NCBI GenBank assembly: GCA_005877205.1
Contig: VBPL01000005.1
Span: forward strand, 1-36,887
Direction of reading: 5' to 3'
Length of the DNA: 36,887 bases
From: Nitrososphaerota archaeon
GTDB taxonomy: Archaea; Thermoproteota; Nitrososphaeria; Nitrososphaerales; Nitrosopumilaceae
Each line of letters starts with the position of its first letter. Position 1 is the stretch's first letter. The notes beneath the pieces are model-generated. The model saw only the letters and a list, made by a program, of their open reading frames with translations. It ran no database searches and was not told where the DNA came from. Positions 14,146 to 25,405 of this stretch are shown piece after piece. The position numbers were made by a program, and so were the translations under genes.

Positions 14146-14763
14146 ATGCTAAGAGGGGTTGTGATAGCAATAATCATAGGTGCAGCTATAGTTGGACTTT
14201 ATTACATAGGCGTTCTACAATTAGGCAAAAAAACTATAGAAGAAGAACTCCCAAAGGCTTTAGATCAGATACAAAGCGGTTTAACGTATGATAAATTTGT
14301 TAACATGGTAGATTCGCAGAGGGAAGCCCTGGTGCAAAAGATGCCCCAGAAAACAATAGGCCTCATACTGGAAGAGGCAAGGAAATTTCCGACAACAGTG
14401 TCAGAGAGCATCCAAGACATGGCTTCAAAAATAGGTGCAGGTTCGCAATCTATCATATATTCAAAACAAGGATCTTTTGTTGGACTAAACGGAAACGACG
14501 CTAAAGGTAAAGCGATAATAATTTCAGTTGGAAAGGTTGCCTTTCTCCGTTTTCAGGATTTTGAGGTGACTAATGGCCCAGATCTCCACGTATTCATGAC
14601 AAATGGTGGTGATATCGCAACTGGTATAGATTTGGGTAAGCTAAAAGGAAGTGTTGGGGACCAAAACTATGCTCTAAACGGTGTGGACCTTAAGACCTAT
14701 GATACAGTGGTGATTTATTGCAAGCCATTCCACATCAACTTTGCTGAAGCCAAATTGTCATAA
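14146..14763 (+). CDS. Membrane-anchored DM13 domain protein
   Basis: A 205-residue protein with an N-terminal hydrophobic segment (about residues 4-25, VVIAIIIGAAIVGLYYIGVL) that acts as an anchor or uncleaved signal. A helical spacer follows, then a DM13 domain from about 97 to the end. DM13 hallmarks are GSFVGLNGNDAKGKAII, FEVTNGPDLHVFM and the end VVIYCKPFHINFAEAKLS with its single Cys. DM13 domains are thought to take part in electron transfer or redox at the cell surface; this is known for the family, not shown here. The tail of this gene and 25 bases past its stop are duplicated at 15648-15693, and a more distant copy of such a tail is at 22653-22694. Confidence 0.85.
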   Translation: MLRGVVIAIIIGAAIVGLYYIGVLQLGKKTIEEELPKALDQIQSGLTYDKFVNMVDSQREALVQKMPQKTIGLILEEARKFPTTVSESIQDMASKIGAGSQSIIYSKQGSFVGLNGNDAKGKAIIISVGKVAFLRFQDFEVTNGPDLHVFMTNGGDIATGIDLGKLKGSVGDQNYALNGVDLKTYDTVVIYCKPFHINFAEAKLS

Positions 14764-14788
14764 ACGTATACTTTGCCATTAGTTAAAT
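14743..14788 (+). repeat. 46-bp direct repeat, copy A (DM13 gene 3' end)
   Basis: Covers the last codons and stop of the DM13 gene plus 25 downstream bases. Identical at 45 of 46 positions to 15648-15693. Confidence 0.9.
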
Positions 14789-15118
14789 GAAACAAAAACA
14801 GATGATGGTAATTTTAACGGTGATAATCAATTATCTGCACAAGTCCATCCGGCGGGCACTTCAAGTGCTGGAATTCCAATCTCACCAGATATTCAATATT
14901 ATGTGACCTTGGAAAAGACATCTTCTCTACTGACACTAAAATTATTCTCTGATCCTGCAAGGACTCTGCAAATCTCAGGGTCGCCAGTAACTTTAGACAT
15001 AACGGGAAACGACCTTAGCAATTTGGATTACTTGCAACATGATGGGTGTAAATATTGTGGTGATTCACGAACTCTGACGGCACAGATTGATAATACCGTA
15101 ATTTTCGTACCGTAGATA
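14783..15118 (+). pseudogene. Relic of a lectin-like module (copy of part of the giant surface protein)
   Basis: Read in one frame from about 14783, this stretch gives a peptide ending before the stop at 15116-15118. It matches the C-terminal half of the module inserted in the giant protein at about 19770-20020: SAGIPISPDIQYYVTLEK against SAGIPIVSNTQYYVKLER, LFSDPARTLQISGSPVTLDI against VFSDPARTINVAGSPVTLDI, and QHDGCKYCG against QHDGCTECG. There is no start codon with an upstream signal, and an in-frame TAG sits at 14780-14782, so it is a 5'-truncated fragment and not a gene. The reading frame has stayed open, so the truncation may be fairly recent or the peptide may still be selected. Confidence 0.75.
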
Positions 15119-15190
15119 CTTCCTCCAAGAGATCTTGTGAACTAGTTCAACAAACTTTCTTTAAAACTAAGTCCAACAGCTCTTGAACGA

Positions 15191-15415
15191 TCAGTTACAA
15201 AAGTCATTATGATTCATAAAGCACTCAAAGTGTGCATTCATCATTGCTAATAGAATAGTTTTGATTTTTTCAGAGTGTTTTTTGATTTCTTCTGTATCAT
15301 TTGTTATTGTATTTACTTTTAGTCCATTTACTTCTTGCATCATATCAATGAGGTATTGTATAAACAACGCATCATACGAAATTGTTCTTCTGTAACCGAT
15401 TAGATCCTCACTCAT
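15191..15415 (-). CDS. Small hypothetical protein
   Basis: A 74-residue, charged, helical protein (MSEDLIGYRRTISYDALF at the N-terminus, then TEEIKKHSEKIKTILLAMM). No transmembrane segment or known motif. A TATA-like AATTATAA at 15446-15453 lies about 34 nt upstream of the ATG, which would leave a short leader. It lies within the segment bounded by the 46-bp direct repeats, in a region rich in gene fragments. I do not recognise it; it may be a lineage-specific accessory gene or a chance frame. Confidence 0.45.
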   Translation of the reverse strand: MSEDLIGYRRTISYDALFIQYLIDMMQEVNGLKVNTITNDTEEIKKHSEKIKTILLAMMNAHFECFMNHNDFCN

Positions 15416-15620
15416 GTCTTTATCCGATTTAGGATAAGCATTTTGAATTATAAAAATGCGGTCTCCCAGAAATGGTAATCAATATTATATCATAATGGAG
15501 ATTTTTCTGAAATCAAAAAATGGAGGTTTTATGATGTGGTCCGATGCCCTAGACTTTTACTTTAGGTATGATAGCTGAGATCGCTCATACCTGCAGGTGT
15601 GCAAACAAGAGACCAATCAG

Positions 15621-15668
15621 TGCAAAGTTTACAAATTCATACACTTGGCTGAAGCCAAATTGTCATAA
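15621..15668 (+). pseudogene. DM13-type C-terminal fragment
   Basis: Fifteen codons plus stop read CKVYKFIHLAEAKLS, closely like the DM13 gene end CKPFHINFAEAKLS. The frame closes about 14 codons upstream, so only a gene tail is present. It extends into the 46-bp repeat. Confidence 0.55.
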
Positions 15669-15693
15669 CCGTATACTTTGCCATTAGTTAAAT
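15648..15693 (+). repeat. 46-bp direct repeat, copy B
   Basis: Matches 14743-14788 at 45 of 46 bases, including 25 bases beyond the stop codon. Copies A and B bound an 859-base segment that holds the lectin-like relic and the small gene at 15191-15415. Confidence 0.9.
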
Positions 15694-15701
15694 AGATAAA
15701 A

Positions 15702-15785
15702 ATGAATCAGCCACCTAAAATTTTGTATCATAATCTTGCCCAAATTGTTGGAAGTGATAATATTGAGTATGATGAGAAATCCTAG
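15702..15785 (+). pseudogene. 27-residue open frame, possible N-terminal remnant
   Basis: The frame starts MNQPPKILYHNLAQIVGSDN and ends EKS-stop. The pattern resembles the N-terminus of FAD-linked oxidases (L..IVG...), but the match is short and I cannot confirm it. It is a possible truncated gene start. Confidence 0.2.
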
Positions 15786-15897
15786 AGAAGAATCTTATCG
15801 AAAAATTCTACGTCCGTCATAAATAGAGCTTTGCACCAGAATACCTGGTTGGTTTGAGTTTGACAGGGGTTGAAGGCAGATCACAAGGCGGTACAAG

Positions 15898-18800
15898 ATG
15901 AAGACTTTGAAATTAATTTTTTCTGTCACCCTCGGCATCATATTGGTGCTTTCTCTTTTCGCACAAACAGATTTTACTGTTCCAGTTCAAGCAAGCCAAG
16001 ACCCACAATTGACAGCCGCACAGTTTGATACAACAACAAAGACGGCTTTACAAGATTTCAAGCAAGTCGGTACGGATTCAGCAACCAAAAAATTACAATC
16101 CGAAACAATTTCAGATACTGATAAATCAAAACTTGCAAAGCTTGCACTTCCGTTTATACAAAATATTGGACAAGTAAATTCACAAGTGAAATACTACGCA
16201 GAAACATTTGCAGGAACGGTCTTTGTCACAAGTCATGGGTTGAGGTATTCATTTATGCAACACGATTTCAAACCTAACAGTAATGTTGGCACCCGGATTA
16301 GTGGTATTGCCGTCGATGAGACATTCATCGGTTCATATGGGACCATAAATCCACGCGGTATTGACAAGAGCAGCTCACAAGTCAGCTATTTTGTCGGAAA
16401 CAAGGATTCATGGAAAAGTAATGCCCCTACATACAATACTCTAAGCCTCGGGTCGGTCTGGCCTCAAGTTGATATCACACTAAAAGCTTACGGCAAAAGT
16501 ACGGAGAAGATATTTACGATACACCCCGGTGGTAACGTAAATAGTATCAGAGTTGCATTAGATGGAATTAATTCTATTTCGGTAGACAAGGAAGGCAAGC
16601 TCTTGATTGGAACACAGCTTGGAACAGTATCCATGACAAGACCAGTTGCATACCAGGAGATAAACGGCATGCGACATGGAATCGAGGTATCATATGTCGT
16701 ATCTGGCAACTCGTATGGATTTACGGTAGGAAATTATGATAAACACTTTCCTCTCATCATAGATCCACTTTTAGCATCTAAAACTCTCGGCAGTGGCTAC
16801 GATACTGGCATGGCCCGTGACAGATCTGGCAATGTCTATATTACAGGTTTTACAGGGGCACCAAATTATCCAACCACTCCTGGCGCTTATCAGACAACCT
16901 TTGATTCTACTTGCAATTCTTGTTATCCAGATTCTCAGCGTAATGTTTCTAACTATTTTGTATCCAAGCTCGACCCATCTCTTTCTACACTTTTAGCATC
17001 TACATTCATTGGCACTACAGAGGATGACTGGAGCCCGGTGGCCATAGCCCTTGACAGCTCCGGTAATGTCTACATTACGGGTGTAAACCCAGCAAATTAC
17101 CCGTACACCTCTAATGCTTACCAGACTGCTAGGGGTCTCTCATTTGTATCCAAGCTCAACCCATCTCTTTCCTCACTTTTGGCATCCACGTTTATAGACA
17201 GTTTTAGTAGCAATGCCATAGCTCTTGATAGTTCTGGCAACGTCTACGTCGTTGGTACGGGTGTAAAAAAGTTCGATCCGTCCCTTTCCTCACTTTTAGC
17301 ATCCACATCTATTGGAGGTGGCAACGCCATTGCCCTTGATAGTTCTGGCAATATCTACACTACTGGCGGTGGTGTAGGCGTCTACAAGTACAACTCAACG
17401 CTTTCACTTTTAGCGTCCGCATCCCCCGGTGCTGGAACCGCTACTGCCATAGCCCTTGACAGCACAGGCAATGTCTACATTACAGGATATACATGGGCAT
17501 CAAATTACCCAACCACTACCGGTGCATATCAGAGAACATTTCGTGGTAGTGATTTTGGTAATCAAGGTGACGCATTTGTCACCGAGTTTGACTCCTCTCT
17601 TTCCACGCTTTTAGCATCTACATTTATTGGTGGTTCAAGTAATGACGATCCTTATGGCATTGCTCTTGACAGCTCTGGCAATGTCTACATTACAGGTCTT
17701 ACATTATCATCAAATTATCCGACCACTGCTTGCGCTTACAAGAGTACCTATGCTTTTGCTAATGGTGGAATATTTATCTCCAAGTTCGACCCGTCCCTTT
17801 CCTCACTTTTAGCATCAACATATCTTACCGATGGCACTGGATACGCTATTGCACTTGACAGCTCACGTGATGTCTACATTGGGGGCTCTTTCACTGTCTC
17901 TGTCTTTGAGATTACTGACGATCTTTCCGGAACGGCTTCCTGTAATTCTCCATCTACACCACAGCCTCCAACTGGACTGACTGCAACGACGGTATCATCA
18001 TCACAAATCAATCTATCCTGGACTGCCCCATCAAATAACGGTGGTTCTGCTATAACAGGATACAAGATAGAAAAGTCAACTGATGGCGGTACCACTTGGT
18101 CTACTATTGTATCCAATACTGGTTCAACTTCAACAACATATTCTGATACTGGACTTGCTGCTAGTACCACTTACGCTTATCGAGTATCAGCTATAAATTC
18201 AGTTGGAACAAGCGCTCCGTCTAATACTGCATCTGCTACAACAAATAGTGCAGCTACGATAATCAATTCAGACACAGACCAGACAACTCCTCTGGTAATA
18301 AATCAGGGAGATGTACTGCAAATCAACAGTGGCGCGACACTTACTATGGATAGTTCACTTGATAACAACGGAACAATTTACATTTTGTCAGGAGGTTCGC
18401 TTAAAATAGATCCGGGTTTTACAATGACAAACCATGTTGCTGGTCAAATAAATAACACTGGACTCATCATTACACCACCTTCCGATACCGGAAGATCAAC
18501 CATAACAAATGACGGAAAGCTAAATAATATGAATACTATCCAGATGCAAAGCACATCGTCCTTTACTAATTCCAACGGAGCTGAAATCAACAACTATCAA
18601 GGAGCATCACTAACTGGAGAGGGTGCCCATTTATTTAATGCTGGCAAATTAAACAACATGGGAAGCCTTGGCCTCTATGCTGGGGGTCTTACCAATTCCG
18701 GAGAATTCGATAATACCGGATCATGTAGTAATTGCGCCATCACTAACACTGCAACTGGCATAGTTAACAACAATGGGCAGTTATCCGGTGAATGTTGCAT

Positions 18801-21105
18801 TGATAATAGCGGGGTCGTTAATAATGAGGGTTTTATTAAAATGGTTGACGTAATAACAGTCAGATCAGGTGGCATCCTAAACAACGATAATGGAACCATT
18901 GTGGCCTTTGGTAATGATGCTGTCATCGATAACCATGGAGTGATCAACAACAATCAAGGTACCATCAATGACACACTTGGGGCATATTTTAGCAATAATG
19001 GTGGTTTGATGTCTAATTCTGGCATCATAAATAACATCAATGGTTCTCAAACCACCATATTTGATAACACTAACGGTACATTTAGGAACAATTGCGGCGG
19101 AGTATTCAACAATGAAGGTGTATTCAAAGGTAATCCAATTATCAATTCATGTTCACCCTTGCGAAGTACAAGCAGTAGTGTAATACCAAACCCGGCAACT
19201 GGAACTGTTGGTGTACCCAAGAACTTCAAGGCATCAGTTTATGACTCAAACGTTGGTACAAAGACTGCTCCAACAGGTACTATATCCTGGAGTGATAACG
19301 GTGCAGGTGGTACCTTTAGTGGTACAACATGCACACTGGCAGCAGCAACTCCTGATATCAGCCAGTGTATCGTATCATACACTCCAAAGACAGGACAAGT
19401 TAGTACGAGCGGAAACGTAATCTTTCAAGATGATTATTCAAGTAACGCAGGATGGACTCAGATAGGAACTTCAGTCACGGTAAATAGTCCATCCTTTCCT
19501 GGGGTGGTGAAATACAATGATGAAATAGGAGGTAGTGGTGTAGATCAAAACCGAGTTTACAAGCAATTGTCCACCACATTGCCATCACACGAATGGATTG
19601 CATATTTCGATTATGAATATACTGCATCATCACTTGCAAGAAGCTATATATTTGATCTTACCGCCACATCGGACGATCCATTTTCTCAATCACCCTCAAA
19701 TATGATAAGTGTTGAACATGGTGTTGATGTTGATAAATTGTTTGTGCAACGTGGTATTGGAGGTGCACTCTCTGCGGGAATTCCAATTGTATCAAATACA
19801 CAATATTATGTCAAACTAGAAAGAGTGCAAACCCAATTGATTTTAAGTGTGTTCTCTGATCCGGCTAGAACTATCAATGTTGCAGGTTCCCCGGTGACTT
19901 TGGATATTGCAGCAACTGACTATAACAATAATTTGAATTTCATACAGCATGACGGATGTACAGAGTGTGGACCTGGACGGACACTAACTGCAGAGATTGA
20001 CAATACATTAATCACTGCTGGTACAGGCCCCACTACAATTACTGCAACTTATTCAGGTGACACTACACACAGCACAAGCTCCGGCACATCAACATTAACA
20101 GTAAATCTCCGTACCACTACAACTACAATAATACCAAACCCAGCAAATGGTACCGTTGGAGTTGCAAAGAACTTCAAGGCATCAGTTTATGACTCAAATA
20201 CAGGTACAAAGACTGCTCCAACAGGTACCGTATCATGGGGTGATAACGGTGCAGGCGGTACCTTTGGTAGTTCGACATGCACACTGGCAACAGCAACTCC
20301 TGACATCAGCCAGTGTATAATATCATACACTCCATTAAAGACAGGTCCTGTAACAATAACTGCAACGTATCAAGGTGATGGTACCCATGGTACAAGCTCT
20401 GGCTCATCAGCTCTTACAGTATATCTCCATATCACCAGGACTACCGTAAAAACAGCCGAAACAAACCCAGCAAATGGAACTGCTGGAAAACCCAAACCCT
20501 TCACTGTAATAGTTACTGACACAAGCGGCAGCGGAAGAACTGCTCCAACAGGTACCGTATCATGGAGTGATAACGGTGCAGGTGGTACCTTTAGTGGTAC
20601 AACATGCACACTTGGACCAACAGGCGGTGGCGATTCAAGTACATGTATCGTATCATACACTCCATTAAAGATAGGGTCTGTTACAATAACTGCAACGTAT
20701 CCAGGTGATGGTACCCATGGCACAAGCTCTGGCTCGTCAGCTCTAACAGTATCTACTGATACTACAACTACTACCGTTACGCCAAAGCCAGCGACAACAA
20801 GTAATAGCAAAGATTCTGTAACATTTCATGTAACAGTTGTCGATTCAAGTCCTGGCCCCCAGAGTATTCCAACTGGACTGGTCATATGGAAGAGTAGTGA
20901 CTTGTCTGTACCCTTTGGTCCAGATTCATGCACATTGACATCTGTAGCTGGTTCCACTAACACAAGCACATGTGATATCGTATATTTCTACGGTGCACTG
21001 GATACGTGTGTCGAATTTTCAGACTCGATAACTGGAACTTATCGTGGTGACAGTACTCATGCCAGAAGCTCTGATACAACAACACTGTCAGTAACGTGCC
21101 CCTAG
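15898..21105 (+). CDS. Giant secreted multidomain surface protein (DUF7948-like, SBBP repeats, FN3, Ig-like repeats)
   Basis: A 1735-residue protein. Residues 1-32 are a signal peptide (hydrophobic IFSVTLGIILVLSLF, cleavage near VQA). Residues about 75-290 resemble the DUF7948 domain that precedes SBBP beta-propellers (FIQNIGQVNSQVKYYA). Residues about 295-680 hold SBBP repeats (IALDSSGNVYITG and variants). An FN3 module follows at about 686-782. Residues about 785-1085 are Asn/Gly-rich with repeated NNGTI/NSGxxNN units, perhaps a beta-helix. Four Ig-like repeats of about 100 residues run from about 1092 to the end. The first is split by a 211-residue lectin-like module (about 1167-1377). No C-terminal membrane anchor or sorting motif is seen. 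It is probably an adhesin or cell-surface matrix protein. Its DNA repeats suggest growth by module duplication. Confidence 0.88.
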   Translation: MKTLKLIFSVTLGIILVLSLFAQTDFTVPVQASQDPQLTAAQFDTTTKTALQDFKQVGTDSATKKLQSETISDTDKSKLAKLALPFIQNIGQVNSQVKYYAETFAGTVFVTSHGLRYSFMQHDFKPNSNVGTRISGIAVDETFIGSYGTINPRGIDKSSSQVSYFVGNKDSWKSNAPTYNTLSLGSVWPQVDITLKAYGKSTEKIFTIHPGGNVNSIRVALDGINSISVDKEGKLLIGTQLGTVSMTRPVAYQEINGMRHGIEVSYVVSGNSYGFTVGNYDKHFPLIIDPLLASKTLGSGYDTGMARDRSGNVYITGFTGAPNYPTTPGAYQTTFDSTCNSCYPDSQRNVSNYFVSKLDPSLSTLLASTFIGTTEDDWSPVAIALDSSGNVYITGVNPANYPYTSNAYQTARGLSFVSKLNPSLSSLLASTFIDSFSSNAIALDSSGNVYVVGTGVKKFDPSLSSLLASTSIGGGNAIALDSSGNIYTTGGGVGVYKYNSTLSLLASASPGAGTATAIALDSTGNVYITGYTWASNYPTTTGAYQRTFRGSDFGNQGDAFVTEFDSSLSTLLASTFIGGSSNDDPYGIALDSSGNVYITGLTLSSNYPTTACAYKSTYAFANGGIFISKFDPSLSSLLASTYLTDGTGYAIALDSSRDVYIGGSFTVSVFEITDDLSGTASCNSPSTPQPPTGLTATTVSSSQINLSWTAPSNNGGSAITGYKIEKSTDGGTTWSTIVSNTGSTSTTYSDTGLAASTTYAYRVSAINSVGTSAPSNTASATTNSAATIINSDTDQTTPLVINQGDVLQINSGATLTMDSSLDNNGTIYILSGGSLKIDPGFTMTNHVAGQINNTGLIITPPSDTGRSTITNDGKLNNMNTIQMQSTSSFTNSNGAEINNYQGASLTGEGAHLFNAGKLNNMGSLGLYAGGLTNSGEFDNTGSCSNCAITNTATGIVNNNGQLSGECCIDNSGVVNNEGFIKMVDVITVRSGGILNNDNGTIVAFGNDAVIDNHGVINNNQGTINDTLGAYFSNNGGLMSNSGIINNINGSQTTIFDNTNGTFRNNCGGVFNNEGVFKGNPIINSCSPLRSTSSSVIPNPATGTVGVPKNFKASVYDSNVGTKTAPTGTISWSDNGAGGTFSGTTCTLAAATPDISQCIVSYTPKTGQVSTSGNVIFQDDYSSNAGWTQIGTSVTVNSPSFPGVVKYNDEIGGSGVDQNRVYKQLSTTLPSHEWIAYFDYEYTASSLARSYIFDLTATSDDPFSQSPSNMISVEHGVDVDKLFVQRGIGGALSAGIPIVSNTQYYVKLERVQTQLILSVFSDPARTINVAGSPVTLDIAATDYNNNLNFIQHDGCTECGPGRTLTAEIDNTLITAGTGPTTITATYSGDTTHSTSSGTSTLTVNLRTTTTTIIPNPANGTVGVAKNFKASVYDSNTGTKTAPTGTVSWGDNGAGGTFGSSTCTLATATPDISQCIISYTPLKTGPVTITATYQGDGTHGTSSGSSALTVYLHITRTTVKTAETNPANGTAGKPKPFTVIVTDTSGSGRTAPTGTVSWSDNGAGGTFSGTTCTLGPTGGGDSSTCIVSYTPLKIGSVTITATYPGDGTHGTSSGSSALTVSTDTTTTTVTPKPATTSNSKDSVTFHVTVVDSSPGPQSIPTGLVIWKSSDLSVPFGPDSCTLTSVAGSTNTSTCDIVYFYGALDTCVEFSDSITGTYRGDSTHARSSDTTTLSVTCP
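17951..18245 (+). repeat. FN3 module related to the FN3 units at 3-545
   Basis: The first half is closest to the unit at 251-545 (SSSQINLSWTAP, ITGYKIE, TWSTIVSNTGST), and the second half to the unit at 3-235 (TTYSDTGLAAST, YAYRVSAINSVGTS, ATTNxAAT). It looks chimeric. Confidence 0.7.
19171..20105 (+). repeat. Ig-like repeat 1, interrupted by a lectin-like module
   Basis: Ig-like halves are at 19171-19394 and 20028-20105. The intervening 19395-20027 (633 bases, 211 codons) encodes a concanavalin/LamG-like module. The pentamer ACAGG is present at both edges (19390-19394 and 20023-20027). Removing 633 bases restores KTGPTTITATY, matching KTGPVTITATY of repeat 2. Confidence 0.7.
20110..20433 (+). 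repeat. Ig-like repeat 2
   Basis: The unit is bounded by TTTTIIPNPANGTVGV at the start and GSSALTV at the end. Long nucleotide stretches are shared with repeats 1 and 3, for example around the segment encoding DNGAGGTF. Confidence 0.75.
20434..20757 (+). repeat. Ig-like repeat 3
   Basis: Shares GTVSWSDNGAGGTFSGTTCT and VTITATYPGDGTHGTSSGSS with repeats 1 and 2. A fourth, more diverged unit follows to the end of the gene (20758-21105). Confidence 0.75.
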
Positions 21106-21571
21106 CCTTTAACACACAAAATTAGCTTAAACTTTCATTACGGATTCCATATGGTTTTAGCATGTACTTTAGTTTAGTCAAATGTAATAATGTTATCTTG
21201 AGCCAAGTGTAAGAGAGTCCCTAGATTTGAACAGACAAAAGTCTATTGCGTAATCCTATACCAAATTACGAAAAGATTCACATTTCATTGAATTATTTTA
21301 ACAAGAATTAGACATAGGCCAGCTTTTATGCGATCTTTTTCACCGCATACGCTTGTATTTCCACTGTCCTTACATCTATTCTTATTTTTCTAACAGCGGA
21401 GGGGATTGGTACAAAGGATAAGCAGATCATCTTCTGGTGTTCTTTTTATTCTGCGCGCCAGTTAATGGCTAATATTTTACAAATGGACAATATGGACAAT
21501 TTTACAACATGCAACAATGTAAACTCGCTCTTTATTTAGAAAGATGGAGAAGACTTTGTGGAGGGTATAGT
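21106..21571. other. Intergenic region after the giant gene
   Basis: A/T-rich, without a gene I can support. One short inverted repeat, TATGCG at 21327-21332 and CGCATA at 21344-21349 around an A/T-rich 11-base loop, could be a weak hairpin or operator. There is a tandem ATGGACAAT duplication near 21484-21501. Confidence 0.4.
21560..21565 (+). promoter_or_regulatory. Ribosome binding site deciding the start at 21572
   Basis: GGAGGG lies six bases before the ATG at 21572. This supports that start over an in-frame ATG at 21509. Confidence 0.6.
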
Positions 21572-21844
21572 ATGACAGCTATTGAAAATGATCGATCAGA
21601 GGCTGAGGTAGATAAGAGACCGCACTTGAGTAAAATCAGCGTTGAGGATGCAAATGATATCGCATCAAAGTTTTTTCGACAAAATTTTAATTTTGTCAAT
21701 ATAAAAAGCACAAATCTTCTAAAAGGAATTTGGCTTGTACAAGTAGTTACGTCCTCATTAGGTACTCTGGCAACTCATGTACTCTCAATTGATTCTCAAA
21801 CTGGGAAAATATTAACAACTGCGCAAATAGCGGAAAAAGAATAG
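21572..21844 (+). CDS. Small PepSY-like hypothetical protein
   Basis: A 90-residue protein using the ATG behind a clear Shine-Dalgarno site (the upstream ATG at 21509 would add 21 residues rich in Arg and Cys with no support). The core SVEDANDIASKFFRQNFNFV, followed by GIWLVQVVTSSLGTLATHVL and SIDSQTGKIL, has the alternating pattern of PepSY/propeptide-type domains (helix, then strands ending IDxxTGKIL). There is no signal peptide, so it would be cytoplasmic. Related short proteins are common in thaumarchaeal genomes. The function is unknown. Confidence 0.6.
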   Translation: MTAIENDRSEAEVDKRPHLSKISVEDANDIASKFFRQNFNFVNIKSTNLLKGIWLVQVVTSSLGTLATHVLSIDSQTGKILTTAQIAEKE

Positions 21845-21875
21845 TACCGCAAGTAAAAAATTCTAGAAAAATATC

Positions 21876-22394
21876 TTAATCGTGGGAAATCGTAAAACTC
21901 ATGTAATCACCGTTACCAACAAAATCCGTAAATCGCGTGGTGGTATCTTTGAATATTTTCTCAAAGACCATTTTAGTTATACTAGTCCAAGTCTTGCCCA
22001 ATTCGTGAAAAAGAGTATATCTTACAGACCCGCCTTCCAAGTCTTTTTCAGTAAATGGTATGTCCTGAATCAAGCAATTGGATTCTATAGTCTGCATCAC
22101 GGCTTGTACATCAAACTCGCCTTGTGAATACCTAATTTGTTTTTTCAAGTCTTTTGCGATAACATCACCAAGTTTTTCAATGCACTTGGAGTCGACGTTT
22201 TTAATCAGCTCTGTCATCAATTCCCTGCTAGACCAAACATAATGTAGCCTTTCCAAATGTCGATAACTTCCATTATAGTTAGTTAAGATACTACAAACAT
22301 GATTGCTAAGGGTAATTCTTCTTTTCCTTGAATCTCTACCTAATTCGTCTATGATTTCGTCATCTAGTCTAAAGCCCTTTACCGTACTTGTCAC
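21876..22394 (-). CDS. Hypothetical protein with N-terminal ribbon-helix-helix-like segment
   Basis: A 172-residue protein starting with GTG at 22394. Residues about 5-40 (VKGFRLDDEIIDELGRDSRK followed by RRITLSNHVCSIL) resemble a ribbon-helix-helix DNA-binding fold. The rest is a mixed alpha/beta domain with YTLFHELGKTWTSITKMVFE, which I do not recognise; a sensory or dimerisation part is plausible. A TATA-like AAATATAG at 22421-22428 on the opposite strand lies about 30 nt upstream of the GTG. The layout suggests a transcription factor, unproven. It is convergent with the small gene before it (31 bases apart). Confidence 0.65.
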   Translation of the reverse strand: MTSTVKGFRLDDEIIDELGRDSRKRRITLSNHVCSILTNYNGSYRHLERLHYVWSSRELMTELIKNVDSKCIEKLGDVIAKDLKKQIRYSQGEFDVQAVMQTIESNCLIQDIPFTEKDLEGGSVRYTLFHELGKTWTSITKMVFEKIFKDTTTRFTDFVGNGDYMSFTISHD

Positions 22395-22726
22395 AAAAGG
22401 CTTTCCAGTGAAGAACCTGGAAATATAGCTTTTGGCAAATAGATCACATGTTTGTATACGTCATCCTTCTACTTAAGGAATCATGTGTAACTTTTGAATC
22501 AATATGTTCAATTATTCAGGATCAGAATCTGTGTAGTCCCATACAAGACTATGCACTTCTTTAGTTGGTTAAAAGAAATTTTTTTTCTTTGTATATAAAC
22601 TCGTTAGCAAAAATACAAGCATAGAAGGCTTACGAAGAAATGCTACACGCAAGTTTACAATATCATGCACTTGGCTGAAGCAAAATTAGCATAATGATTT
22701 TGCTGAGTTTGAATTAGTTTAAACCA
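22395..22726. other. Intergenic region with a DM13-tail repeat
   Basis: A plus-strand TATA-like GTATATAAA is at 22591-22599 with no convincing gene behind it. Repeat copy C lies at 22653-22694. Nothing else is recognised. Confidence 0.4.
22653..22694 (+). repeat. Diverged copy C of the DM13-tail repeat
   Basis: Matches 15627-15668 at 36 of 42 bases. In frame it reads VYNIMHLAEAKLA-stop against VYKFIHLAEAKLS-stop, so both are relics of related gene ends. It sits 33 bases past the end of ppdK, on the opposite strand. Confidence 0.7.
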
Positions 22727-25405
22727 TTATTTTCGTCGACTAGATTTTGCCCTAGTCTTCATTTGTTTTTCTATTGCTACCTGCGCTGCAGCTAATATAG
22801 CTATGGGTACTCTATGAGAAGAAGCGCTAACATAGGTTAGTCCAGCTTTGTGGCAGAATTTTACTGATAGCGGATCTCCTCCATGTTCTCCACATATTCC
22901 AATCTCAAGATTTGGTTTAACACTTCGGCCTTTTGATATTGCTATCTGCATTAAACTTCCAACGCCATTGACGTCAAGCGATTCAAATGGATTTTCTTTC
23001 ATTATTTCTCTTTCAATATACTCTGGAAGAAACTTGCCTTCCGCATCTTCCCTACTAAAGCTAAATACCGCCTGTGTTAGGTCATTTGTTCCGAAACTGA
23101 AGAACTCGGTTATCTTGGCTATTTCATCAGACGTAAGACAGGCACGGACTACCTCTAACATGGTACCAAAATTAACTTTCAATCTTATGCCAAATTTTGC
23201 TTCCACGTCTGATTTTATCCTCTGATAAATTTTTTTGATATAGTCTAGTTCATTTACGCCACCAACCTGAGGTATCATTATCTGAGGATGGATGTAGACT
23301 TTGTCTCTTATCGATTCGGCGGCTGCCTCACATATTGCTCTAATTTGCATTTCATAAATCTCTGGATATGTGATGCCAAGTCTTACTCCTCTATGTCCCA
23401 TCATGGGATTAATTTCAGCTAGTTCCTTTGCTCTTTCAAAGAATGCTCGTGTTGTTGAAAGCTCGTCTGACGAATCTTTGCTCTCAAGTGAATGAATTTT
23501 GTTTATGAGTTCTTCAACATTTGGAAGAAATTCATGTAGTGGTGGGTCAAGCAATCTGATTGTAACGTGGTATCCTTCCATTATCTTGAGTATTTCTTTG
23601 AAATCTTCTTTTTGTCCCAGGCTTAATTTTTCTAAAGCTTTTTTTCTTTCTTCAACAGTTTTTGCCATTATCATTTCAACAAAGACTGGCAATCTGTCAC
23701 GCGCGTTGAACATTCGCTCCGTTCTGCACAAGCCAATTCCTTCTGCGCCATAGGTGCGTGCTAATTTCGCTGATTGAGGAGTGTCAGCGTTTGCTCTTAT
23801 TCCAAGCTTTTTGAGTTTCTGAGCCCAACCAAGTATTGTTCTAAAATCCTCCGTTAATTTCGGCTCAACAGTTGGTACCTCTCCTAGGTAGACTTTTCCA
23901 TTGCCTCCATCAATTGTTATTACCTCTCCTTCAAAAACAGCTCTGCTGTCCACAAAAAGTTTTTTTTCTGAATAATCTATTTTCATATCATTACATCCAA
24001 CTATGCACGGTTTTCCCATTCCTCTTGCAACCACTGCCGCATGTGACGTCTTACCTCCTCTACTTGTTAGAATTCCAACTGAAGCAAAAAATGCCGGAAC
24101 GTCCTCAGGTTTTGTTTCTTCTCTTACAAGAATAACTTTCACACCATCCTCGCCCATTTGAACTGCCTTCTTGACGTCAAAGATTGCTATGCCAGTAGCG
24201 GCCCCTGGTGATGCGGGTATACCCTTTGTTAAAGGATTGAATTTTTTTGATGCTTCACTGTCGATTGTCTTATGGAGCAACTGATCAAGATCTTCAGGGT
24301 TGAGGCGTAAAATTGCTCTGTCCTTTGTTATGAGTCTCTCCTTGAACATATCTACAGATGTTTTTATCATTCCAGCCGTGTTCATCTTTGCCGCTCGGGT
24401 CTGAAGAAGGTAAAATCTACCCTTTTCTACTGTAAATTCTATATCCTGAGGCTCCTTGAAATGCCTTTCAAGCTTTTCGCACGTCTTCAATAATTGTTGA
24501 TAAGTGGACGGTAATTCTTTTGTCATCTCGTCTATTGATTGTGGAGTTCTTATGCCAGCCACGACGTCTTCTCCTTGGGCATTTACGAGGTATTCCCCAA
24601 AGATTTTTTTTGTACCATCGGAGGGATTTCGTGTAAAGACTACTCCAGTAGCACTGTCATTGCCCATATTGCCAAAAATCATTGCGACAACATTTACTGC
24701 AGTACCATTTGCAATCTCTTTTGTGATCTTGTATTTTTCTCTGTATACTACCGCTCTTTCACCCAACCAACTTTTAAAAACTGCATCAATTGCAAGCTCA
24801 AGCTGCTTGTACGGGTCTTCTGGGAAGGGTGTGCCGGTGTGTAGTTGACAGATTGATTTGTATTCTGATACTACTTTTCTTAACGATTGTTCATTTAGTT
24901 CATAGTCTTGCTGCACATTCTGTTGTTTTTTGGCATTTTGTAAGACCTCATCAAATAGCTTGTCATCTATGCCAAATACTACCTTTCCAAACAATTGAAT
25001 GAACCTGCGATAAGAATCCCACGCAAATCTGGCGCTCTGACTGGTATTTGCAAGTCCCATTACGGTTTGATCATTTAGTCCCAAGTTGAGAATTGTGTCC
25101 ATCATGCCAGGCATCGATATTGCAGCACCTGATCTGACTGAAACTAGGAGGGGGTTTTGTAATGAACCAAACTTCTTGCCGGTTCTTGCCTCAATTTTCT
25201 GAATGCTTTTCTTTACTTTTGGCATTAACGTTCGTGGTAATTTTTTGTTATTATCATAATACTTGGTACAGACTTCAGTCGTAATTGTAAATCCAGGAGG
25301 CACAGGAAGCCCCAATCTTGTCATTTCGATGAGGCCAGCTCCTTTTCCCCCAAAAAGTTTTTTGTTCTTGCCGTTACCCTCATCAAAAAAATAAATTGGC
25401 TTCAT
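22727..25405 (-). CDS. ppdK: Pyruvate, phosphate dikinase
   Basis: Interconverts pyruvate, ATP and phosphate with phosphoenolpyruvate, AMP and diphosphate. In autotrophic thaumarchaea it feeds gluconeogenesis from the 3HP/4HB cycle. The protein is 892 residues, full length for the family. The N-terminal nucleotide domain has LFGGKGAGL and RSGAAISMPGMMDT. The swinging domain carries the catalytic histidine in GGKTSHAAVVARG (H455). The PEP-binding barrel has GIGLCRTERMF, GHRGVRLG, and GEHGGDP with the catalytic Cys in a segment ending SSHRVPIAILAAAQ. It follows tpiA by 26 bases and is the last gene of a minus-strand unit beginning at sucC. Confidence 0.96.
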   Translation of the reverse strand: MKPIYFFDEGNGKNKKLFGGKGAGLIEMTRLGLPVPPGFTITTEVCTKYYDNNKKLPRTLMPKVKKSIQKIEARTGKKFGSLQNPLLVSVRSGAAISMPGMMDTILNLGLNDQTVMGLANTSQSARFAWDSYRRFIQLFGKVVFGIDDKLFDEVLQNAKKQQNVQQDYELNEQSLRKVVSEYKSICQLHTGTPFPEDPYKQLELAIDAVFKSWLGERAVVYREKYKITKEIANGTAVNVVAMIFGNMGNDSATGVVFTRNPSDGTKKIFGEYLVNAQGEDVVAGIRTPQSIDEMTKELPSTYQQLLKTCEKLERHFKEPQDIEFTVEKGRFYLLQTRAAKMNTAGMIKTSVDMFKERLITKDRAILRLNPEDLDQLLHKTIDSEASKKFNPLTKGIPASPGAATGIAIFDVKKAVQMGEDGVKVILVREETKPEDVPAFFASVGILTSRGGKTSHAAVVARGMGKPCIVGCNDMKIDYSEKKLFVDSRAVFEGEVITIDGGNGKVYLGEVPTVEPKLTEDFRTILGWAQKLKKLGIRANADTPQSAKLARTYGAEGIGLCRTERMFNARDRLPVFVEMIMAKTVEERKKALEKLSLGQKEDFKEILKIMEGYHVTIRLLDPPLHEFLPNVEELINKIHSLESKDSSDELSTTRAFFERAKELAEINPMMGHRGVRLGITYPEIYEMQIRAICEAAAESIRDKVYIHPQIMIPQVGGVNELDYIKKIYQRIKSDVEAKFGIRLKVNFGTMLEVVRACLTSDEIAKITEFFSFGTNDLTQAVFSFSREDAEGKFLPEYIEREIMKENPFESLDVNGVGSLMQIAISKGRSVKPNLEIGICGEHGGDPLSVKFCHKAGLTYVSASSHRVPIAILAAAQVAIEKQMKTRAKSSRRK

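Follow-up and report, generated by a model that had tools for sequence, protein, structure and literature searches.

How does a compact, lectin-like domain come to lie inside another domain of an archaeal surface protein? The question is raised by one gene in the window (the whole 36,887-nt stretch of DNA analysed here, contig VBPL01000005.1), which comes from the genome (1.56 Mb, 98 contigs) of a Nitrosotalea-type thaumarchaeon, a soil ammonia-oxidising archaeon. The encoded protein combines an N-terminal hydrophobic segment, which looks like a signal peptide and is regarded as a putative one, with DUF7948, SBBP beta-propeller repeats, fn3, an Asn-rich repeat region and Big_3_5 Ig repeats (Pfam); on the whole protein Big_3_5 (PF16640) scores 43.9 bits, above the cut-off of 35.5, and the sole NCBIfam match falls in the propeller. 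A sequence-only reading had proposed that the first Ig-like repeat is cut by a lectin-like module flanked by ACAGG. Domain insertion is a known way of protein evolution, and the majority of known cases are old and can be recognised from structures alone. In this gene the interrupted repeat stands beside uninterrupted near-copies, and free-standing relatives of the module exist in the genus, which makes the inserted part recognisable. The features of the locus and of its relatives are collected in Table 1.

Table 1. Coordinates of the host gene, the split repeat, the module and the surrounding island (positions in the window unless a locus is named).
Feature	Position	Strand	Remarks
att-like repeat, copy 1, left island edge	14739..14763	+	3' end of DM13 gene 14146-14763
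Decayed module relic, C-terminal half only	14804..15115	+	57% aa identity to module residues 108-199, E 2.4e-28; stop at end
att-like repeat, copy 2, internal, between elements A and B	15644..15668	+	
Host gene	15898..21105	+	surface protein of 1735 aa, presumably secreted; ORF and translation
Ig repeat 1, left part, ending ...CIVSYTPKTG	19162..19394	+	85% nt identical to left part of repeat 2
Left ACAGG	19390..19394	+	repeat 2 has ACAGG at the equivalent place
In-frame insertion, 633 nt / 211 codons	19395..20027	+	upon deletion, one open frame and a complete Big_3_5 repeat
Lectin-like module proper, 202 aa	19417..20022	+	homologues in six other genomes; fold match ConA-like/LamG/galectin
Module first strand segment VIFQDDYSSNAGWTQIGTSVTV	19417-19482	+	
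Right ACAGG	20023..20027	+	
Ig repeat 1, right part, PTTITATYSGDTTHSTSSGTSTLTVNL	20028..20109	+	72% nt identical to repeat 2, 70% to repeat 3
Ig repeat 2, uninterrupted	20110..20427	+	paralogous empty site
Ig repeat 3, uninterrupted	20437..20757	+	
att-like repeat, copy 3, right island edge, by PPDK (22727-25405, -)	22670..22694	+	empty site in G024, G027
Permuted relatives	L021 7653-8693, L022 1537-2484, L023 218-1168, L024 7692-8645		N-terminal membrane helix, coiled coil and core

On re-check, the coordinates, the letters, the length (633 nt, 211 codons) and the frame of the proposed insertion were all correct. Deletion of 19395-20027 leaves a single open frame reading KTGPTTITATY (...YTPKTG/PTTITATY...), the rejoined sequence being ...CIVSYTPKTGPTTITATYSGD..., and the parallel that had been drawn between repeats 1 and 2 is real, with 198 of 233 nucleotides identical in the left half and 59 of 82 in the right. 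The cut falls after position 2 of a Gly codon (GG/A), and repeat 1 is one codon (TTA) short 8 nt to the left of the edge, where it has TPKTG and repeat 2 TPLKTG. Once rejoined, repeat 1 aligns with positions 4-88 of the 88 positions of Big_3_5 at 31.5 bits, compared with 31.0 bits for the intact repeat 2; both lie under the cut-off of 35.5, and repeat 3 passes it (39.3 bits). The left part alone (19162-19395) gave no match to the Big_3_5 profile, and with the module left in place the best Big_3_5 alignment covers residues 240-315, from the tail of the module into the right part of the repeat. This confirms a nested domain insertion of the type A1-B-A2: the Ig domain of the host contains an entire independent domain and is whole again when its two parts are put together.

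The description of this independent domain as lectin-like holds at the level of the fold but not of sequence, no named sequence family (LamG etc.) having been matched; none of 5 members of the module family had a Pfam match at E of 1 or below. Structure modelling of the nested segment, from a shallow alignment, gave a mean pLDDT of 51.5, with the Ig part and the first strand below 50 and confidence restricted to the module core (about residues 131-260 of the nested segment; pLDDT mostly 65-88). In Foldseek, this core matched agrin/neurexin/laminin LG domains, galectins and PL7 lyases with a probability of 1.00 (E about 1e-4, TMt up to 0.57). The core is predicted to be a two-sheet jelly-roll beta sandwich of the ConA-like/LamG/galectin type, an assignment from a moderate-confidence model that extends to the fold class only.

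The module was found in 7 of the 250 genomes of the family, including 5 of the 36 other members of the genus and one genome of another genus (G299); beyond the family, 398 genomes of the phylum yielded one weak hit. Four of the genus members (G024, G002, G009 and G001) carry the module in an Ig-free protein with an N-terminal hydrophobic (membrane) helix and a coiled coil, a fragment lies at the end of a G027 contig, and in G299 the module adjoins an F5/8-C domain, likewise without Ig repeats. A two-cysteine motif, QHDGCxxCG, is common to the module of the window, its relic and G024, and is absent from the G002 group. Neither an intact donor nor a separate intact module gene was found in the genome. 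The decayed relic lies 4.3 kb upstream of the module and was rejected as a recent copying source (only 66% nt identity, over 237 nt). A viral origin of the module was also rejected, because viral contigs and phage records gave no hit (weak PHROG hits with E above 0.05 were disregarded).

Comparison with other Ig repeats gives the order of events. Repeat 2, used as a query, has matches in 33 of 37 Nitrosotalea-genus genomes, and among 95 distinct complete repeats of the subfamily, from 40 loci of the genus, the split form was seen only in repeat 1. This is also the only place where a left-only and a right-only match form a pair in one frame; other left-only hits are truncated where the locus stops. 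The loop carrying the module comprises 7-11 residues in parsable repeats and more than 210 in repeat 1 (two loop lengths of 28 are due to faulty parsing, as the strings show). Since the uninterrupted repeat is the general state and the loop is short elsewhere, the module arrived later. The idea that one domain was put into another is therefore supported, the Ig repeat being usually whole and the module being known elsewhere without an Ig repeat, and no other searched genome has the module at this place. An orthologue with an empty site in repeat 1 was not found, because the whole host gene sits on a lineage-specific island and is missing at the syntenic position in G024 and G027. We consider it highly probable that the loop preceding the final ...TITATY... 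strands of the first Big_3_5 repeat received a free-standing ConA-like module in frame.

It is also conceivable, although unlikely, that the module and the right half of the Ig repeat were acquired as one segment by homologous recombination in the conserved left half, from a donor gene that was already nested, ACAGG being incidental. Half-repeats were compared, as MAFFT could not align the Ig repeats across the 211-residue gap. Repeats 1 and 2 agree more to the left of the cut (85%) than to the right (72%), and repeats 2 and 3 more to the right (87% versus 71%), the values for repeats 1 and 3 being 76% on the left and 70% on the right; such a pattern, in a genus rich in Ig-repeat genes and moving islands, speaks for joint transfer. 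However, the right half of repeat 1 is within the background distance (70-76%), and it is the two high values that are outliers, resembling local repeat exchange. Moreover, no second nested copy exists in the 250 family genomes, in which none of the module relatives lies inside an Ig repeat. The left/right pattern would fit a history in which neighbouring repeats swapped sequence once the insertion had taken place, the 633-nt block keeping repeats 1 and 2 from doing so past the cut. The right halves closest to that of repeat 1 are those of a related G027 protein and of repeat 2. Repeat 2 is itself a mosaic (20110-20757), its left part near repeat 1 and its right part near repeat 3.

The edges of the insertion had been taken for a clean trace of the mechanism, a view that could not be maintained. 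ACAGG is indeed present on both sides, but the match is weak and ends at 5 nt at either edge; shared runs of at least 5 nt occur in the host gene in 0.4% of pairs 633 nt apart and in 0.7% of random pairs, figures to be read with ACAGG having been picked post hoc. As repeat 2 has ACAGG at the equivalent site, one copy is native and only the right-hand copy is informative. With no empty-site orthologue and no intact donor, a match of 5 bp is too short to tell a target-site duplication from microhomology or chance. A transposition-like insertion, in which a mobile unit ending at the module borders generated ACAGG as a 5-bp target-site duplication, would account for the motif at both edges and is nevertheless very improbable: the native copy in repeat 2 speaks against it, the insert is one open reading frame with no transposase and no terminal inverted repeats at its ends (5 of 30 positions match), and no other copy of the unit was found in the genome. 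A transposon target-site duplication was rejected on account of these missing inverted ends, transposase and further copies. Least credible of all is an assembly chimera joining reads of a separate module gene into the repeat array, for although the array is repetitive and the genome is in many contigs, both junctions lie in one reading frame through 211 codons and the genome has no separate intact module gene.

For the in-frame insertion of a free-standing module, the edges are most economically read as an illegitimate join at a microhomology. A LamG/galectin-type beta-sandwich module would have joined the Ig loop, probably the E-F loop of repeat 1, in frame by an illegitimate join, perhaps aided by the ACAGG microhomology. 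Both domains would then fold, the Ig repeat closing around the module through the close termini of the latter, and the module would project sideways from the Ig stalk and might bind a glycan or another surface ligand, glycan binding being predicted from the fold class.

Circular permutation is known in the ConA-like fold class, e.g., in concanavalin A itself, and relatives of the module suggest that it has occurred in this family as well. In the window, VIFQDDYSSNAGWTQIGTSVTV comes first and the core second. In G024, G002, G009 and G001 the order is reversed, with the core leading and ILFxDDYSxxxGWxQxGxSV placed after a short linker, at or near the C-terminus; the first segment of the window module (DDYSSxxGWTQ) matches after the core in all four (E 2e-8 to 4e-8), and no sequence resembling it was found upstream of their cores. 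Judged by their sequences, these four relatives appear to be circular permutants of the module; the structure model of a permuted relative, built from a shallow alignment, has a mean pLDDT of 51. The order seen in the window also occurs in G299 and in a broken gene of G024 (L010), and it is taken as the older one because another genus and a relic in G024 have it; in the tree of the module core, supports range from 27 to 92 and deep nodes are not resolved. Permutation via a short linker is possible only with close ends, which implies that the termini of the module would be adjacent. Adjacent termini would also account for the tolerated nesting, with the Ig repeat presumably closing around the module. 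The permuted relatives thus provide independent sequence evidence for close module ends, the feature believed to govern whether a domain can be nested. Closeness of the termini is the main characteristic of inserted domains (median 14.3 vs 29.8 A; PMC13114784). The permuted and nested forms in co-occurrence, like the module family, are absent as described entries from the libraries searched.

Two further observations concern G024. The broken gene (L010 1444-1755, minus strand, contig C12) is a secreted one that starts with the module first segment in window order and has an early stop. Elsewhere in this genome, 65-bp direct repeats (L021 4181-4245 and 9259-9323), 97% identical, flank a 5-kb segment holding the permuted module gene, and this bracket may represent a second mobile context for the module.

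The host gene itself lies on an 8-kb island (14764-22694) between the DM13 and PPDK genes. The island is absent from both nearest relatives by region (G024 and G027), in which DM13 and PPDK are direct neighbours with 38-71 bp between the matches; the whole segment is an insertion in the lineage of the window. Three copies of an att-like repeat, corresponding to the 3' end of the DM13 gene, mark the two edges of the island and split it internally (Table 1), and no others were found in 37 genomes. Copies 1 and 2 share sequence downstream of the repeat core and copies 2 and 3 share upstream sequence, as expected for attL, an internal att and attR of two tandem elements; element A carries the decayed module copy and element B the host gene. 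That the repeats are decayed copies of the DM13 gene is disfavoured, similarity to DM13 ending about 15 codons from the stop, and att-type recombination is preferred. The island shows two hallmarks of integrated mobile elements, namely direct repeats of att type and a site that is empty in relatives; a tyrosine integrase (PF00589) gave no match anywhere in the genome. A gene on the island (21876-22394, minus strand) and one on a G002 contig (L005 2448-2978, plus strand), each lying near the module and encoding about 170-176 aa, look alike by eye; the product of the latter has only weak Pfam hits of the ribbon-helix-helix antitoxin type.

We conclude that the nested insertion in this archaeal surface protein is real, in frame and derived, an event of a well-known kind in an unusually good sequence context. 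Nested insertion offers archaeal surface proteins a way to acquire binding domains, binding being predicted in the present case. More speculatively, a small family of lectin-fold modules in Nitrosotalea-type archaea might move as cargo of integrase-less integrative elements and be reshaped en route, leaving free-standing, permuted and Ig-nested forms in one genus, a proposal that we regard as possible but doubtful. If true, a single module family would be available for a joint study of adjacent termini, permutation and nesting.

Among known systems, the island resembles the integrated mobile elements of thaumarchaea (PMC6563490) in having direct repeats of a gene 3' end and an empty site in relatives, and differs from them in its lack of a PF00589 integrase and in a cargo that is mainly a surface-protein gene; the att sites of thaumarchaeal elements are short (median 17 bp), and 14 of 68 cases involve the 3' end of a protein-coding gene (PMC6563490). 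The module shares its predicted core fold with the ConA-like lectins/glucanases (LamG/LNS, galectin, PL7), whereas it has no family match at the sequence level and 5-15% identity to the structural hits. The host repeats match the Big_3_5 Ig-like domain (PF16640), repeat 1 being distinguished by the 211 codons that split it. As in other domain insertions of the type A1-B-A2 (PMC13114784), a compact domain of about 200 aa with apparently close termini interrupts another domain and leaves it complete; however, the inserted family here is one outside Pfam and NCBIfam, and some of its relatives are permuted, circular permutation being treated in that survey as a separate phenomenon (PMC13114784).
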